Assembly: GCA_024637095.1 (NCBI GenBank)
Contig: JAGXFV010000021.1
Coordinates: 1-52,076, forward strand
Length of the DNA: 52,076 bases
Reading direction: 5' to 3'
Origin: Actinomycetes bacterium
GTDB lineage: Bacteria; Actinomycetota; Thermoleophilia; RBG-16-64-13
In this document: positions 12,479-25,369 of the stretch, one piece after another
Layout: every line of letters starts with the position of its first letter
Position numbering within the stretch: the stretch's first letter is position 1
Made by a program: the position numbers and the translations under genes
Notes under the pieces: generated by a model
Seen by the model: the letters and a program-made list of their open reading frames with translations, nothing else
Told to the model about the DNA's origin: nothing
Databases searched by the model: none

Positions 12479-13536
12479 GCAGGTCGCGGTCTCGCCAGAA
12501 CCTGAAGCAGTCGGCTGCGGCGGGCCGTCATCCGGGCGATGACGGCGGAGGCCAGCGATCCCCGGCTTTCCAGTTCTTTTCTAAGCCCGTCCACCCGGTC
12601 CTCCGGTAACGAGATCAACAGCCCCCCCGAAGTCTGAGCGTCCGCCAGCAGCCAACGCTGCCACGGCTCCAGCCGCTCGGCCCACTCGACCTCGCCCGAC
12701 AGGTAGTCCAGATTGCGCTTGGTCCCGCCGGGGACGATGCCCTCTTGGGCCAGCTGGGCCGCGCCGTCGATCAGCGGCACCTGCTCGGCCCAGACCTCCG
12801 CACTTAGGCCGCTCCCCCGGCAGACCTCCGAGAGGTGCCCCAGGAGCCCGAAGCCGGTGACGTCGGTCATGGCGTTGACACCGTGAGCCAGCGCCGCCTC
12901 GGCGGCATCCCGATTGAGCAGGGTCATGGAGGCCACCGCCTCCGCAACCGCCTCTTTCGGGGCGACTCCCCGCTTGATTGCCGTGGCGATGATCCCGGTA
13001 CCGAGCGGCTTGGTCAGCACTACCACATCGCCCTCGCGGGCGGTCGAATTCGCCACGAAGCCGCCAGGCCTCACCAGGCCGGTCACGGCCATCCCGTATT
13101 TGGGCTCGGGGTCGTCGATGGTGTGCCCCCCGCCCACAGTCACTCCGGCTTCCCGGGCCACGTCCGCCCCGCCTTTGAGGATTTCCACCAGATAGTCCAA
13201 GGGGAGCACGTTCACGGGGAAGCCCACGACGTTCAGCGCCAATCGGGGCACCGCACCCATGGCGTAGATATCGGAGAGCGAATTGACCGCCGCGATCCGG
13301 CCAAAATCGTAGGGGTCGTCCACCACTGGAGTAAAGAAATCGACGGTCTGAACCAGAACCAGGTCGTCACTCAGCCGGTAGATGGCGGCGTCGTCGACCG
13401 TGTCGGTTCCCACCAGGAGGTCTGGATCGACCGCGGGGGGCAGGAGACCCATGACGTACCCCAAGTCCTTGGGGCCGAGCTTGCACGCTCAGCCAGAGCC
13501 GTGAGACAGCGTGGTCAGCCGAGGAACTTCGCCCAC
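12475..13536 (-). CDS. selD: Selenide, water dikinase, itself a selenoprotein (Sec at in-frame TGA 13489-13491)
   Basis: SelD makes selenophosphate from selenide and ATP for selenocysteine and selenouridine synthesis. After the TGA the protein reads ACKLGPKDLGYVMGLLPP, then GTDTVDDAAIY, VGGGHTID and TDVTGFGLLGHLSEV, the expected ATP and metal motifs. Reading upstream through TGA gives VGEVPRLTTLSHGSG-Sec-ACKLGPKDL, matching the family active site GxxC/U-x-C-K. The GTG start at 13534-13536 has AGGGAGGA 7-8 bases upstream. With Sec at position 16 the length is 353 residues, normal for SelD. A start at the first ATG after the TGA would remove the catalytic Sec. A hairpin follows the TGA. Confidence 0.93.
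13459..13474 (-). promoter_or_regulatory. Bacterial SECIS hairpin of selD
   Basis: The mRNA reads CCCCAAGGACUUGGGG. This is a perfect six-pair stem with a GGAC loop, starting 15 nt after the UGA, with the apical G at +21/+22. GCGU just after the UGA can also pair with ACGU beyond the stem. Bacterial SECIS elements lie inside the coding region with an apical G roughly 16-37 nt after UGA, so this fits. Confidence 0.75.
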
Positions 13537-18807: not shown

Positions 18808-20166
18808 CTAGCGGGCGATCTTAGCCACGAAGGCGGCGCCTTGGCCACGCTCCAGGCGAAAATCCACGCCGCAGATGGGGCAGGTCACCAAATCGCCGGC
18901 CGCCGCTCCCGGGCTCAGCTGGATTTCGTGCCGGCAGACCGGACACTGAACCCCCAGGTACTCGGTGCGGTAGGTACGATCGAACATCTGGTGAAGCAAG
19001 CCGGCATCCAGATCGGCCTTCTTCGTGCGACTGCGTATCGCCTCTTCGAGAGCTCCGGCCTCGGCAATGCCCCCGAGCAACAAGGCGCCGACTAGTACGT
19101 CGTCGGGGTCAAACACCAGCTTCTTGTAGAACTCCCCATATGGGTACTCCCCGCGCATCTCACTGAAACCGGAGCGATAGGCGACGGTCGTCCGGCCGAT
19201 GGCGACGAGACTAAGGCCGCGGATCTGCATATTCAGCAGATCGAGCTTTTCGGCCGGTTCCGCGGCCCCGCCGGCCATGGACCTCCCCGCAGCCGCTCCT
19301 TCCCGCCACGAGCGCAGCCAGTTGAAATAGCCTCGCGAGGGATCGCTGGTGACGTCTCCGGCGGCCCAAATCCCCTCCCAGGGCGTGGTCAGATCTTCCC
19401 CCACGGCGAAGGCACCGCCGTCTCCCGGCAGGAAGGACAGGGCGGGACGGTAACGGGCACACACCCCAAACACCTCGCCCTCCAGTTCGGTGCCGTTACC
19501 GAGCACCAGCGCCCGCGCTCTTCCGTCGGCACCGGCCACCCGCTCGGCGGAGACACCCGTGACCAGTTCCGCGCCGGCCGCGCGCAGCCGGGCGGCCGCG
19601 ATGTCGGCGGCATCTTCATCCAGGACTTCCGGCCAGATGCGGGGACCGGGCACGGCGTAGGTCGTGGCGAAGCCCGCCCCCGTGAGCGCCCGCACCATCT
19701 CCAGAGCCACGAGCCCGTCGCCATAGACGACCGCTCGGCGCCCCTGACCGCCGCTCTCGCGAAGCGCCTTGGCCTGATCCAGCGTCTTCAAGCAGACGAC
19801 CCCGTCGAGCTTCTCTCCCGGCAGGCCCCCGCCGTCGACCTGACGGCCGGTGGCGATCAGCAGGGAGTCGTAGCCGACTTCCTCACCCGAGGCCAAGCGG
19901 ACTTTGCCCGCCTCGGCGTCTATCGCCTCGACGCGGCACGAGAGACGGAGTTCCAAGCGTTCGCGATCGTAGAACTCGCTGCGCTTGCCCCATAGTGCGG
20001 CGCCCGCCACCTTTCCTGCCACGAAGTCGGGCAGTTGCGGACGGCGGTAGAAGGGATAGTCCTCCTCGGTCATCAGCGTGATTTCGGCATCCGGCAGCTG
20101 GGCGCGGAGCACCTCGGCGGCCCGGGTGCCCGTGACACCGTTGCCGATGATGACGTACTTCCCCAT
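18808..20166 (-). CDS. FAD/NAD(P)H-dependent oxidoreductase with C-terminal zinc ribbon
   Basis: A 452-residue pyridine-nucleotide disulfide oxidoreductase fold of the nitrite reductase or NADH:rubredoxin reductase group. FAD motif GNGVTGTRAAEVL at the start, YDSLLIATGR in the middle, NAD(P) fold VVYGDGLVALEMVRAL, and second FAD motif GIWAAGDVTSD. Residues about 330-390 form the small dimer-type domain. The last 45 residues add two cysteine knuckles, CPVC (408-411) and CPIC (429-432). No redox-active CxxxxC is seen, so it probably reduces a protein partner such as a rubredoxin or the neighbouring flavoprotein. The start has GAGGAGG upstream. Confidence 0.88.
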   Translation of the reverse strand: MGKYVIIGNGVTGTRAAEVLRAQLPDAEITLMTEEDYPFYRRPQLPDFVAGKVAGAALWGKRSEFYDRERLELRLSCRVEAIDAEAGKVRLASGEEVGYDSLLIATGRQVDGGGLPGEKLDGVVCLKTLDQAKALRESGGQGRRAVVYGDGLVALEMVRALTGAGFATTYAVPGPRIWPEVLDEDAADIAAARLRAAGAELVTGVSAERVAGADGRARALVLGNGTELEGEVFGVCARYRPALSFLPGDGGAFAVGEDLTTPWEGIWAAGDVTSDPSRGYFNWLRSWREGAAAGRSMAGGAAEPAEKLDLLNMQIRGLSLVAIGRTTVAYRSGFSEMRGEYPYGEFYKKLVFDPDDVLVGALLLGGIAEAGALEEAIRSRTKKADLDAGLLHQMFDRTYRTEYLGVQCPVCRHEIQLSPGAAAGDLVTCPICGVDFRLERGQGAAFVAKIAR

Positions 20167-20329: not shown

Positions 20330-21058
20330 ATGGAATTGCCGGACCGATTCGCAGCCGGATTGGAGTTCGACCTGGTCGCCGATACCCTGGCTGATCCCAC
20401 TCGGCGAAGCATCTTCCGTCACATCTCGGCCGCCATTCGGCCCCAGTCGGCGGCTGAAGTGGCCGAAGCTTTCCGCATCCATCGAACCGTGGCCAGGAGC
20501 CACCTGGAACGACTGGTCGAAAGCGGTCTGCTCTGCAGCCGTCCCCACCGCCAGGCAAGAAAGGGAGGTCGGCCGCCCAAGATCTATTACCCGAGCGAGC
20601 AACGCATCGATCTGCAGATGCCGGCGCGGCAGTACGAGATCCTTTCGGGCCTGCTGGTGGAAGCGCTCTCCTGCTTTGGTGACGCCGCCGGAGTAATGCT
20701 CCGCGAGGTCGGACTCGAGTTCGGCCGCAGACTTGCCCAGCAGGCCGGAGACGGATGGGAAGCCAGACTCGGTGTAATGGCCGAGTCGGGGGCCGGAGTG
20801 GAACTGATCCGACCGGACGCCGAGCACCTGGACCTCGTGGTCAGAAATTGTCTTTTTCGCGAGATCTCGCACAAGGCGGACGGTTTGATCTGCGGGCTCG
20901 ACCATGCGATCTTCGAAGGCCTGCTCGGCGGCACCGACGGAGAGATTCTCACGCTGGAAGAAGCGGAGCGACGAACCCCGGCGAAGGATATCTGCCGACT
21001 GCGCTTCCGGTTGAGAAAGCCGGGGCGCGAGGGCCCCGGCCACCAAGACTCCGCTTAG
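20330..21058 (+). CDS. ArsR-like helix-turn-helix regulator with conserved cysteines (SufR-like)
   Basis: A 242-residue regulator. A winged helix covers residues 15-85 (LADPTRRSIFRHI, EVAEAFRIHRTVARSHLERLVESGLL, GRPPKIYYPS). The C-terminal part has NCLFREISHKADGLICGLDHAIFEGLL and then KDICRLRF, three Cys spaced like the cluster-binding Cys of SufR-type regulators. A [2Fe-2S] or [4Fe-4S] ligand role is likely but not shown. It is divergent from the flavin oxidoreductase operon and may control it or the facing redox genes. Its mRNA is probably leaderless. Confidence 0.82.
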   Translation: MELPDRFAAGLEFDLVADTLADPTRRSIFRHISAAIRPQSAAEVAEAFRIHRTVARSHLERLVESGLLCSRPHRQARKGGRPPKIYYPSEQRIDLQMPARQYEILSGLLVEALSCFGDAAGVMLREVGLEFGRRLAQQAGDGWEARLGVMAESGAGVELIRPDAEHLDLVVRNCLFREISHKADGLICGLDHAIFEGLLGGTDGEILTLEEAERRTPAKDICRLRFRLRKPGREGPGHQDSA

Positions 21059-21089: not shown

Positions 21090-22313
21090 CTAGGCCGTCG
21101 ACTCCGCCTCTGCCGCCTGCTTGAGGCGGCGCGCCACGCTCCTGCCCCACTCCACGCACGCCGACAAGTCGTCGTCCGCAGGGATGAACTTGAGCTCGAG
21201 GGGATCGACCTGATCCAGCTTCAGCTCCTCCAGAACCTGATTGACCTGTTTGACTCCTCCGCCGCCCCAGCCAAAAGAGCCGTAGGCCCCAACCAGCCGG
21301 TTCTTCGGCCTCAACCCCTTGATATAGGTCATGAAAGCGCCGACCGAAGGCAACATGCCGTTGTTGAGGGTAGGGGTGCCCACGAGAAAGGCCTGGCTCT
21401 CGAGCACCGATAGCGCGACGTCCGCCATCGGGGTGCGCCCGAGCTGGTGGACTTCGCAGCGCACGCCTTCCTGCGCGATTCCGTCTTCGATGGCTCGGGT
21501 CATCTTCTCGGTAGACTTCCACATGGTGTCGAAGATCAGGGCCACCTTGGGCTCGGCCTTGAACTGGGTCCAGTCGGCGTAGGATTGGATGATGCGCTCG
21601 ATATCTTCCGGGCGCCGCCACAGCACGCCGTGACTCGGGCCGATGACGTCGATTTCCAGGCCCAGCTCCTGCACCTTCGCCAGGACTTTGTTGATCTGCG
21701 TGCCAAAGGGCATCAGGATGTTGGCGTAATACCGGGCCGCTTCCTCGAAGACGACGTCCATATCGTTTTCGTCGGCGAAGCGCTTGGACGAGGCCAGATG
21801 CTGGCCGAACCCGTCATTGGGCAGCAGCGTCTTGGCTTCTTTGACGTAGGTGAACATGCTGTCCGGCCAATGGACCATGGGGACTTCCAGGAAGCTCAGC
21901 GTGTACTTGCCCAGGGAGAGCTCGTCCCCGCTGCCGACAACCTGGATATCCCAGCCGGCGAACCCCTCGTTGGCGAAGTGCTGCTCGAGTGATTCGTGCC
22001 CGCGCTTCGAAGTCACCACGGTCACCGGGGAGAGCTTCTCGATCAACCAGGGCAGCGATCCAGAGTGGTCCAGCTCGACGTGGTTGACGACCAGGTACTC
22101 AATGGTCTTGGGATCGCAGCAACTGCCGATCCGCCTGAGCACCTCGGGACCGAACCCGTTCCGTACCCCGTCGACCAGAGTCTTCTTCTCATCGGTGATG
22201 AGGTAGGAGTTGTAGGTGGTGCCCCGCTGGGTTTCGTAACCGTGGAAGTCCCGGACATTCCAGTCGATCGCCCCGACCCACCAGATATCTTGTTTAAGAG
22301 GGTAGCGCTCCAT
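21090..22313 (-). CDS. fprA: A-type flavoprotein (FprA/rubredoxin:oxygen oxidoreductase family)
   Basis: A 407-residue diiron flavoprotein that reduces oxygen or nitric oxide. The metallo-beta-lactamase domain has NHVELDHSG, VHWPDSM, NDGFGQHLAS and GPSHGVLWR, covering the expected His/Glu/Asp iron ligands. The flavodoxin domain starts at VALIFDTMWKSTEKM and ends near 400. There is no fused rubredoxin. I start at ATG 22313 because MERYPLKQDIWWVG is the family N-terminus. The rubrerythrin gene ends 9 bases upstream, which supports a shared oxygen and peroxide defence role in an anaerobe. Confidence 0.95.
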   Translation of the reverse strand: MERYPLKQDIWWVGAIDWNVRDFHGYETQRGTTYNSYLITDEKKTLVDGVRNGFGPEVLRRIGSCCDPKTIEYLVVNHVELDHSGSLPWLIEKLSPVTVVTSKRGHESLEQHFANEGFAGWDIQVVGSGDELSLGKYTLSFLEVPMVHWPDSMFTYVKEAKTLLPNDGFGQHLASSKRFADENDMDVVFEEAARYYANILMPFGTQINKVLAKVQELGLEIDVIGPSHGVLWRRPEDIERIIQSYADWTQFKAEPKVALIFDTMWKSTEKMTRAIEDGIAQEGVRCEVHQLGRTPMADVALSVLESQAFLVGTPTLNNGMLPSVGAFMTYIKGLRPKNRLVGAYGSFGWGGGGVKQVNQVLEELKLDQVDPLELKFIPADDDLSACVEWGRSVARRLKQAAEAESTA

Positions 22314-22321
22314 CCTCGGCC

Positions 22322-22816
22322 CTACTCGATCTCGAAGATCTGATCCGCAGGACGCCCGCAGACCACACACTTGTCGGGCACTCCGTCTTCATAGGTCATG
22401 CCGCAGTGATGGCAGACGTAGTACCGCTTGTCCTGCACGCCGTCGAGGTCCGCGAGGGCTTCCTGAAAGATCTTCTCGTGGAACTTCTCGGCTTCGTTCG
22501 CCCAGTTGAACACGCACCGGGCTTCTTTGTCACCAGCCTCCTCGGCCTCTTTCATGAAGTCCGGGTACATGCTCGTGTGCTCGTAGTTCTCGCCCCCGGC
22601 CGCGGCCTGCAGGTTCTCGCGGGTGCTCTTGAGCTCGCCCATCGTCCGCAGATGGTTGATTGCGTGGATGGTCTCCGATTCCGCGGCTGCGCGGAAGCGC
22701 TTGGCCACGGCCGGATACCCCTCTTCCATGGCCTTGTTGGCGTATGCCAGATAACGGCGATTGGCCTGGGATTCGCCGGCGAAGGCGTCCCTGAGGTTAT
22801 TCTGCGTGTCCGCCAC
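22322..22816 (-). CDS. Rubrerythrin
   Basis: A 164-residue diiron peroxidase. Residues 1-125 form the ferritin-like four-helix part with FAGESQANRRYLAYA, ESETIHAINHL and NEAEKFHEKIF (the ExxH iron motifs). Residues about 130-160 are a rubredoxin-like domain with CHHCGMTYE and CVVCGRP. Both centres are complete. The start is GTG 22816 with AAAGGAA 9 bases before it. It heads the pair with fprA and follows a methyltransferase gene after 107 bases, where I see only a GC-rich hairpin (GGGGC-n5-GCCCC near 22896) without a T-run. Confidence 0.96.
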   Translation of the reverse strand: MADTQNNLRDAFAGESQANRRYLAYANKAMEEGYPAVAKRFRAAAESETIHAINHLRTMGELKSTRENLQAAAGGENYEHTSMYPDFMKEAEEAGDKEARCVFNWANEAEKFHEKIFQEALADLDGVQDKRYYVCHHCGMTYEDGVPDKCVVCGRPADQIFEIE

Positions 22817-22923: not shown

Positions 22924-23892
22924 TCAATGGGGGCGACGGCCGAACACCAGTTGGTTGTCCGAGTGGTCCAGGTCGATGATCCGGATGTCCTCGAAGCCCG
23001 CCTCGGTCAGCCACTCCCTATATTGCGATTCCCGCCAAACGCCCCCCTCTTCGGTGGCCTGCAGCATGTTGACGGCGAACATGGGCGCTCGCCCGCTTCG
23101 GCCCAGCACGAAATCGCGAACCGCGATGCTCCCCCCCGGTCCGAGCGAGTCAAACACCCGGCGGGTGACCTCGGCGTTCGTCGCGGGGCCGTATATGTGG
23201 TAGACGTTGCCCAGGTAGATCACGTCGAAAGGCCCCGGCGGCAGTTCCTCCGTGAAATCACAGGGATGAAAGTTCAGCTGTGCGGCGCCTTCGCCCTGAT
23301 ATTCCCAGGCTTCCTCCAGTACCTCCGGCCGGTCGCACAACGTCGCCTCGGCGCCCCTCTCCCTGAAGCGCCGTGCCATGTGCCCCACGGCGCCGCCCGC
23401 GTCCAGCAGAGTCAGGCGTTTCTGCGGGTTACCCTCGCGCGAGTAAGCGAGGACCCGTTCCACCACCTCATCCATCGCTTCGGGAGCGCCCTCGGCCATC
23501 GTCCGCACGAAGCTCTTCAGGCTGCCTGCGCTCCGCCGGCGCTCCTTCGGCGCACCGTGCTTTAAGACGTGGGGAAGTTCCAGCCAGCCGCGGGCTTTGT
23601 TCGCCTGGTGAAGCAGGGAATTGCGTTCGAGGTCCGGCCCCGGATCCAGCAGTCGGCGCCGGCCCTCCGCGCTCAATCGGTAACTCTGCCTGCCGCCTTC
23701 GCCCGCGCTGTCGACCGCGCCCACGTCGACCAGCGCATCGAGGACGATTCTGGTGGCGCGTTCATCGGTCGAGGCCAGGCGGCCGACCTCCGCCGGCGTC
23801 CTAGCGCTCTCGCCAAGGGCGTCAATCAGCCCCGACTCGAGAGCTGCGGTGAGAACCAGGAGCTTTTCGATCTCTTTGCGTTCGACCAGCAT
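22924..23892 (-). CDS. SAM-dependent methyltransferase of the O-methyltransferase (AOMT-like) fold
   Basis: A 322-residue protein with an N-terminal winged-helix dimer domain (KLLVLTAALESGLIDALGE, RTPAEVGRLASTDERATRIVLDALV) and a C-terminal Rossmann domain. The SAM motif is LLDAGGAVGHMARRFRERG, followed by FDVIYLGNVYHIYG and GPGGSIAVRDFVLG. This is the layout of small-molecule O-methyltransferases, but the catalytic His/Glu of that group are not clearly placed, so the substrate is unknown. It starts 4 bases after the glutaredoxin stop, so it belongs to the same transcript. Confidence 0.82.
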   Translation of the reverse strand: MLVERKEIEKLLVLTAALESGLIDALGESARTPAEVGRLASTDERATRIVLDALVDVGAVDSAGEGGRQSYRLSAEGRRRLLDPGPDLERNSLLHQANKARGWLELPHVLKHGAPKERRRSAGSLKSFVRTMAEGAPEAMDEVVERVLAYSREGNPQKRLTLLDAGGAVGHMARRFRERGAEATLCDRPEVLEEAWEYQGEGAAQLNFHPCDFTEELPPGPFDVIYLGNVYHIYGPATNAEVTRRVFDSLGPGGSIAVRDFVLGRSGRAPMFAVNMLQATEEGGVWRESQYREWLTEAGFEDIRIIDLDHSDNQLVFGRRPH

Positions 23893-23896
23893 CCGG

Positions 23897-24217
23897 TCAG
23901 GCCCGCTCTTTCTGCGCGACCGGGGCTTCGCCCCCCGTGCCTATGCCCAACGAGTCGGCGATGTCCTGCTCGTTCTCCTCAAAGCCCCAGAACACCCGCT
24001 TGCCCACGACGATTGCCGGAGTGGCAACCCTGCCGAAGGTACCCTCCATCTCGCGGCGCACCGCCTCCTCGGACACGTCCTTCACCTTCATCTCCACGTC
24101 GTGCAGGGTGAAGAAGCGCTTGGCCGCTTGGCAGTCAAGGCAGGTCGGGCTGCTGTAGAGCACTACCTTCCGTTCCGCCTGAGCGCCCACGCCCATCATG
24201 CGCTCGAACAATCCCAC
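23897..24217 (-). CDS. Glutaredoxin-family protein
   Basis: A 106-residue thioredoxin-fold protein with active site SPTCLDCQAAKRFF and the cis-Pro loop VATPAIVVGKRVFWGF. The GTG start at 24217 directly follows the TAA of the selenoprotein gene, and GAGGAGG at the end of that gene serves as its ribosome site. The dithiol motif is intact. Its position suggests it may reduce the selenoprotein or its product, which is inference. Confidence 0.87.
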   Translation of the reverse strand: MGLFERMMGVGAQAERKVVLYSSPTCLDCQAAKRFFTLHDVEMKVKDVSEEAVRREMEGTFGRVATPAIVVGKRVFWGFEENEQDIADSLGIGTGGEAPVAQKERA

Positions 24218-25369
24218 TTAGTCCTCCTCGTATTCAATGGGCAGGCCGGCCTCGACCCATTCGTCGATGCCTCCCGCGTAATCTCTGACATCCGTGTAAC
24301 CCAGCCTTCGCAGCTTATCTGCCGCGATCGCACTGGCCTCTCAGGTGTAGTCATTGCAGTAGACGACGATCGGTTGGTCCTTATCCTTGACCCGGTCGCG
24401 CGACTCGCGGCTGAGATTACGATAGTCGATCCATTCCGACCCAGGCAGATGCCCACGCTCCCAATGATCCCTGCCCATCACATCAAGTACGAGCAGGTCG
24501 CCTTCCGCATCGATGAGATCCTTGAGCTCGTCGCGGTCGATCACCGGCACGTGCGGCCGTCCGGCCTCGGGATCGTAGAAGACCAGATAACTCACGGCGG
24601 TGAAGTAGTCGGCCGCCCGGAAGACGGCTATCTTGCGCACGCTCCTGCCATCGACCACGGCTGCCGGGATCAGCCCCTCCTTCTCGAATTGCCGTCCTGC
24701 GGTCTTTAACGCCCAAACCTGTTTCTCGTCGGAAACATGCGGCGCCAGGATGTCCAGCAGTCCGTAGCGCCGCCCCTCGCTCTCTTCCCGGATTATCAGG
24801 CCCACCGGATGACGGTCTTGGGTGATCACCCAGATCAGATCCTCCTCCATGCCCGCTTCCAACTCGCCGATTGTCGGCGTCTCCTGAAGACCCCGTGCAT
24901 GCGAGTAGAGATCGTGTGCCAGCCGCAGGTGCGGGTAGTCCAGCGGCACCAGGTCGAGACCATCGGCGGGGCCGGGGTCTGCGGTGGTCCGCGACACCAT
25001 CACGCTCATGCTCATCTCCATGGGAAAGCCATAGGCGATGAGCGCGGTCTCGAAGCCGCAATCGTCAGTCCGTACCAGGTGGGCGCGGGGCTCGTAACGC
25101 TCGCGGATCAGATCGACGGCATCTTCGTAGCGGTCGCGGTGATCGCGGGTAAGATACAGCTCGATTAGCGTGACGTGCTCATGTTCGTCATGGGTGTCGA
25201 AGAGCAGCAGGGTGTAGCCTATGGTTTCTTCGCCGTCCCTGATGGCAAAGGGCTCCGCGTGCCGAGCCAGATGCATATGGAAGTTGGGGAAGAGCTGCGT
25301 TTGGAAGGATTCCAATCTCTCTTCCCTCAGACCCGCTATTTCTTCGTAGGGCACCTTTCGCAGGTCCAC
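24218..25369 (-). CDS. Selenoprotein: GNAT-like domains fused to a rhodanese domain (Sec at in-frame TGA 24341-24343)
   Basis: Reading through the TGA gives a 383-residue protein with Sec343. Residues about 1-250 look like two weak GNAT acetyltransferase-type folds (ESFQTQLFPNF, HPVGLIIREESEGRRYGLLD). Residues about 270-383 are a rhodanese domain: LLVLDVMGRDHWERGHLPGS, IVVYC-NDYT-Sec-EAS, then AADKLRRLGYTDVRDYAGG and IDEWVEAGLPIE. The sequence after TGA completes the rhodanese fold, so the TGA is not a real stop. Related rhodaneses have YC-x4-C-x-AS, so Sec replaces Cys. The GTG at 25369 follows AGGAGG by about 6 bases; the frame is open to a GTG at 25399. Function is unknown. Confidence 0.85.
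24308..24327 (-). promoter_or_regulatory. Bacterial SECIS hairpin of the rhodanese selenoprotein
   Basis: The mRNA forms UCGCGGC-AGAUAA-GCUGCGA, a seven-pair stem with one G-U pair and a six-base loop. The apical G is 22 nt after the UGA, almost the same distance as in selD. This fits bacterial SECIS geometry and supports UGA recoding. Confidence 0.7.

Follow-up and report, generated by a model that had tools for sequence, protein, structure and literature searches.

Comparative evidence for selenocysteine in a GNAT-rhodanese fusion protein of an Actinomycetota order

Introduction

Rhodanese domains often deliver sulfur. Five forms of rhodanese selenoprotein have been listed, the first of which is defined by the motif UxxS and represented by WP_010941598.1 (PMC13188914). 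Two families of rhodanese-related proteins are described by NCBIfam models. TsoB (NF045694), a rhodanese/DsbD fusion-like protein with the motif UxxxxU, matches residues 269-381 of the protein studied here and has the same spacing between its two reactive residues, but it contains two selenocysteines (Sec) and a different fusion partner, and the present protein scores 36.4 bits against a cut-off of 805. The rhodanese_LYCAU model (NF041203, motif CxU) describes a rhodanese-related seleno/Cys protein in which Sec lies two residues after the Cys, as opposed to five in the present protein, which scores 48.5 bits and falls short of the cut-off of 115. The protein, which is encoded in a 52,076-nt stretch of an Actinomycetota genome (hereafter, the window), stays below the cut-off of every NCBIfam model.

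Results

An open reading frame continuing beyond a UGA codon

The minus strand of the window carries a frame that extends from a GTG start at 25369, with AGGAGG immediately upstream, to a TAA at 24218-24220, and that contains a single in-frame TGA (Table 1). A sequence-only reading of this DNA had placed the TGA at 24341-24343, directly after YCNDYT and followed by 40 further codons and a TAA, and the sequence and its translation agree with that description exactly. When TGA is translated as U, the residues flanking this codon are IVVYCNDYT-U-EASAIAADKLRRLGY, and a stop at this point would truncate the rhodanese domain within its active-site loop.

Table 1. Features of the GNAT-rhodanese locus and its surroundings in the window
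Feature	Position	Strand	Evidence or remarks
GNAT-rhodanese selenoprotein gene (predicted)	24218..25369	-	383 aa, GTG start, TAA stop; TGA=U translation and homologues in 12 genomes of the order
In-frame UGA, predicted Sec343	24341..24343	-	Same alignment column: UGA in 11 genomes, TGT in one
Cys338 codon, predicted rhodanese catalytic Cys (YC), invariant	24356..24358	-	Alignment
bSECIS-type hairpin UCGCGGC-AGAUAA-GCUGCGA	24308..24327	-	Folds, conservation, pair counts, synonymous constraint
Tandem GNAT-fold region (residues 1-267), without Q/RxxGxG/A motif	24569..25369	-	AlphaFold2 model; 3iwg and MshD matches
Rhodanese domain (residues 274-383)	24221..24550	-	PF00581, E 2.8e-18; structure matches
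Glutaredoxin-like protein	23897..24217	-	PF00462; CLDC in window, UxxC (Sec) in five relatives (TGA=U)
O-methyltransferase-like SAM methyltransferase, next operon gene	22924..23892	-	PF00891/PF13489; synteny
Rubrerythrin	22322..22816	-	PF02915; synteny
Flavodiiron protein (ODP beta-lactamase and flavodoxin), true start probably further in	21090..22370	-	PF19583/PF00258; synteny
HTH (ArsR-like) regulator beside operon	20330..21058	+	PF12840; synteny
NAD(P)H/FAD oxidoreductase with C-terminal Zn-ribbon-like domain	18808..20166	-	PF07992, PF21344; synteny in two genomes
selD (selenophosphate synthetase)	about 12550-13536	-	Own in-frame TGA at 13489-13491

Conservation of the UGA codon and of the downstream segment

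A genome of the same genus as the window carries the same gene and TGA, with 93% identity. Of the 18 genomes of the order, 12 contain the fusion in full or in part. The codon at the Sec site is TGA in 11 of these 12 genomes and TGT in the twelfth (G396). The homologue in the latter genome (L069) reads YCNGFRCEAG, with Cys at the exact position of the predicted Sec, which bears out the earlier proposal that the UGA occupies a conserved Cys position. The sequence-only reading had also considered that homologues might all end at this point. None of them does; all 12 run on, 11 through the UGA and one through the TGT Cys codon. Among the 396 genomes of the phylum and 399 of the class that were searched, no match covering the GNAT part was found outside this one family. 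The Cys form pairs with a Sec form in the phylogenetic tree (support 100/100) and hence looks derived, although long branches advise caution. In G389, the fusion (L067) is a decayed copy with a frameshifted N-terminus and a TGA replacing the conserved Trp303, which retains the Sec-site UGA and the hairpin; the two additional TGAs of this copy were rejected as further Sec codons on account of the frameshift and of the TGA at Trp303.

Amino-acid identity to the window protein is 75-95% after the UGA, versus 45-93% before it, and dN/dS after the UGA, computed against the window gene, is about 0.1-0.3. These values indicate that the segment 3' of the UGA is under strong purifying selection.

A conserved hairpin downstream of the UGA

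The hairpin in Table 1 starts 13 nt after the UGA and presents a 7-bp stem (UCGCGGC/GCUGCGA) with an apical G at 24319. The seven pairs and the distance of 22 nt between UGA and apical G had been put forward from the sequence alone, and folding of the window sequence reproduced both. The hairpin (UCGCGGCU/AGCUGCGA) and an invariant GAUAAG are found in 11/11 UGA members. The folding energy of a 69-nt stretch yields a z of -2.5, with 3/200 dinucleotide shuffles performing as well, and that of a 36-nt stretch yields a p of 0.15 against synonymous-codon shuffles. On its own, the energy of this one hairpin sequence is only moderately unusual and weak as proof, and the Sec assignment therefore rests on comparative data, namely the UGA at the same codon, the synonymous conservation of the hairpin and the purifying selection downstream.

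Across the alignment, 95.5% of the stem cells pair, versus 27-53% for slid positions. The stem of the fusion hairpin is almost invariant, which explains why no double-sided covariation was detected; where paired columns differ, they do so on a single side. At columns with invariant amino acids, codon identity is 0.88 in the hairpin (codons 348-354) versus 0.47 elsewhere. All UGA members use CGA for Arg354, although this codon accounts for 9% of Arg in those window genes that were checked. In the Cys member, the AADKLR peptide is unchanged but is encoded by GCC GCC GAC AAG CTG AGG, with GAC and AGG in place of GAT and CGA; these synonymous changes break both loop and stem, and the hairpin is lost. 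In a wider set of related rhodaneses, UGA members are more stable relative to their own synonymous shuffles than Cys members (Mann-Whitney p 1.4e-4), a value that is indicative only, since the set was partly chosen for UGA and consists of related sequences. A scan of the window at Rfam gathering scores returned zero matches. Overall, the sequence features by which bacterial selenoproteins are recognised (conserved coding sequence after the UGA, sel genes, a hairpin with an apical G and a Cys homologue) are all present here.

Selenocysteine machinery

The host assembly of the window spans 2.47 Mb and is 96.6% complete. Searches of this genome located selA at C45:21202-22575 (555 bits), with selB immediately 3' of it scoring over the cut-off, and the tRNA-Sec gene (selC) at C45:45047 (74.9 bits), to which ARAGORN assigned the anticodon TCA. 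selD (397 bits) lies inside the window itself, about 11 kb from the GNAT-rhodanese gene. The sequence-only reading had made its interpretation dependent on selA, selB and selC, and the genome holds all three as well as selD. The gene for SelB was likewise found in every UGA-bearing genome but three draft bins: G402 (64% complete), G404 (76%) and G397 (320 contigs, 7% contamination). selD is a UGA-containing selenoprotein gene in its own right, with the codon in the context LTTLSHGSGUACKLGP (GSGUACKLGP).

Domain architecture

Translated through the TGA, residues 279-373 match PF00581 with 66.7 bits (gathering score 22.2). The AlphaFold2 model (mean pLDDT 80) comprises two GNAT lobes (residues 1-267) and a rhodanese domain (about 274-382). 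The GNAT part aligns to 3iwg with a Z of 22.1 (rmsd 3.3 over 246 residues) and to MshD (1ozp) with a Z of 16.5, and the rhodanese part aligns to solved rhodaneses with Z of 14-17. The GNAT domain appears in Pfam below threshold only. The original description of the gene as a GNAT-rhodanese fusion holds for both folds on the strength of structure comparison and PF00581, with the amendment that the GNAT region is a tandem, two-lobe one that remains under the Pfam threshold.

The acetyl-CoA motif Q/R-x-x-G-x-G/A is missing in both lobes, which present HRDRYED (lobe 1) and APHVSDEK (lobe 2) instead. Given the absence of this loop motif, the GNAT region more likely serves in binding or regulation than in acetyl transfer. 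Residues H60, H63, H65, T67, E70, D102 and C104 do not vary among the intact N-terminal regions. Together with D102 and C104, the arrangement H60-x2-H63-x-H65-x-T67-x2-E70 resembles a metal or ligand site in the first GNAT lobe (25058-25192, minus strand).

Operon context

The order of the genes encoding the GNAT-rhodanese, the glutaredoxin, the methyltransferase, the rubrerythrin and the flavodiiron protein is kept across genera, with losses. The glutaredoxin has a CxxC motif in the genus of the window and UxxC, with a UGA codon in frame, in five relatives (L064, L065, L070, L071 and L072), so the operon often appears to encode two consecutive selenoproteins. Among the relatives, G398, G389, G396, G397 and G404 have no glutaredoxin gene beside the fusion, and a role of its product as reductant would accordingly not be universal. 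The C-terminal domain of the nearby oxidoreductase is a LysW-like Zn-ribbon (sub-threshold match), and this enzyme may supply the flavodiiron protein with electrons.

Discussion

The comparative analysis strongly supports the reading of the UGA in this gene as selenocysteine, and its product is very probably a Sec-containing GNAT-rhodanese fusion protein. Other genes of this genome, such as the glutaredoxin gene with its end at 23897, do terminate normally at UGA, and the protein might in principle end after YCNDYT, leaving the downstream sequence untranslated. Such termination would cost the protein a large part of its rhodanese domain, and it is rendered highly improbable by dN/dS values of 0.12-0.3 and 75-95% identity after the UGA, by the lack of any homologue ending there and by the Cys that G396 encodes at this position. 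Read-through as such is compatible with any decoding, so that another residue (e.g. Trp, by suppression or a change of code) could take the place of Sec. Cys nonetheless occupies the homologous position in those relatives that were read, TGA serves as the stop of another operon gene, and a full Sec machinery coexists with the conserved bSECIS-type hairpin, all of which makes this decoding more improbable still. A decayed copy with two extra TGAs and a frameshift does occur in G389, but the same UGA in 11 genomes from independent assemblies, under strong purifying selection, leaves a sequencing error or decaying pseudogene scarcely credible as the origin of the codon.

SelB and tRNA-Sec(UCA), guided by the hairpin after the UGA, very probably insert Sec at position 343. 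For the selenocysteine-containing protein, a catalytic cycle can be outlined. Cys338 would take up sulfane sulfur from a persulfide or polysulfide, or become oxidised, and Sec343, at the opposite end of the same loop, would attack the modified Cys338 and release the reduced product. A Cys338-Sec343 selenenylsulfide would then form and be reduced by the adjacent glutaredoxin-like protein. We consider the chances of such a persulfide/thiol-reductase mechanism to be about even. With Sec inserted, the protein could instead act mainly as a sulfurtransferase or as a GNAT acyltransferase regulated by its rhodanese domain. Sulfur delivery is common for rhodanese domains, and the matches of the N-terminal part, which include MshD, leave its GNAT fold clear. 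The missing Q/RxxGxG/A motif in both lobes, the second thiol/selenol in the loop, which favours redox release of sulfur, and neighbours that are redox enzymes speak against these functions. These functions are a real possibility, if a somewhat improbable one.

The presence of rubrerythrin, flavodiiron protein and FAD oxidoreductase genes in the operon context suggests that the putative persulfide/thiol reductase helps an anaerobe under O2 or NO stress to repair its thiols and persulfides. A broader and more tentative proposal, which we deem unlikely as a whole, is that one Actinomycetota order has, in this locus, a dedicated Se-dependent module for the repair of thiols and persulfides. Here, the tandem pseudo-GNAT region (conserved H-x2-H-x-H-x-T-x2-E, D102 and C104, a possible metal/thiol-ligand site) would hand substrate to the C-x4-Sec rhodanese, and the Sec/Cys glutaredoxin would re-reduce the latter, alongside rubrerythrin and flavodiiron protein acting against O2/NO damage. 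The locus links rhodanese selenochemistry to a putative O2/NO defence operon, and makes the function of a Sec rhodanese testable through its neighbours.

Comparison with known systems

The fusion and rhodanese selenoprotein form 1 (PMC13188914) share PF00581, a single Sec and the motif U-x2-S (here U343-E-A-S346). The fusion differs in having its Sec in a C-x4-U arrangement and in the tandem GNAT region, with WP_010941598.1 compared by its listed motif only. The active-site loop C338-N-D-Y-T-U343 is two residues longer than that of GlpE-type sulfurtransferases. A loop of the YC-x4-C type (YCWGPAC) is found in BH2092 (PDB 3nhv/3o3w; Z 16.4), a stand-alone rhodanese domain with Cys where the fusion has Sec. 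The Colwellia GNAT protein 3iwg and MshD (1ozp/2c27) have the two-lobe fold of residues 1-267 (Z 22.1 and 16.5, respectively), but they share 10-14% identity with the fusion, lack a rhodanese domain and differ from it in the acetyl-CoA loop motif, which is absent in the fusion.

The C-x4-U placement of Sec in rhodaneses is common in the Actinomycetota, and YC-x4-U-x2-S is frequent among the single-domain rhodaneses of this phylum (L031, L033, L042, L081 and others). Such proteins, for example L031, L033 and L081, are homologous to the rhodanese part of the fusion, have Sec in the same column and a hairpin after the UGA, and differ from it in lacking the GNAT region, in their flanks and in the sequence of the hairpin. 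Besides the fusion, two sequence types of single-domain rhodanese in the phylum use this column for Sec, one YCSNFNUHSS-like and the other YCWDSAUDLSPRAAWRLE-like, the latter with a hairpin loop about 21 nt after the UGA. In one single-domain Sec rhodanese type, the next region resembles a putative CBS domain.

The sequence-only reading had regarded the gene as new-looking. The Sec site is of a known kind, since UxxS has been listed as form 1 (PMC13188914) and Sec in the same column is common in single-domain relatives from the phylum. The literature searched contained neither a GNAT-rhodanese selenoprotein nor its operon. As far as that literature shows, the novelty resides in the joining of the rhodanese to a tandem GNAT and in the conserved operon around it. 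The fusion adds to the known rhodanese selenoproteins an architecture that standard annotation would end at the UGA.
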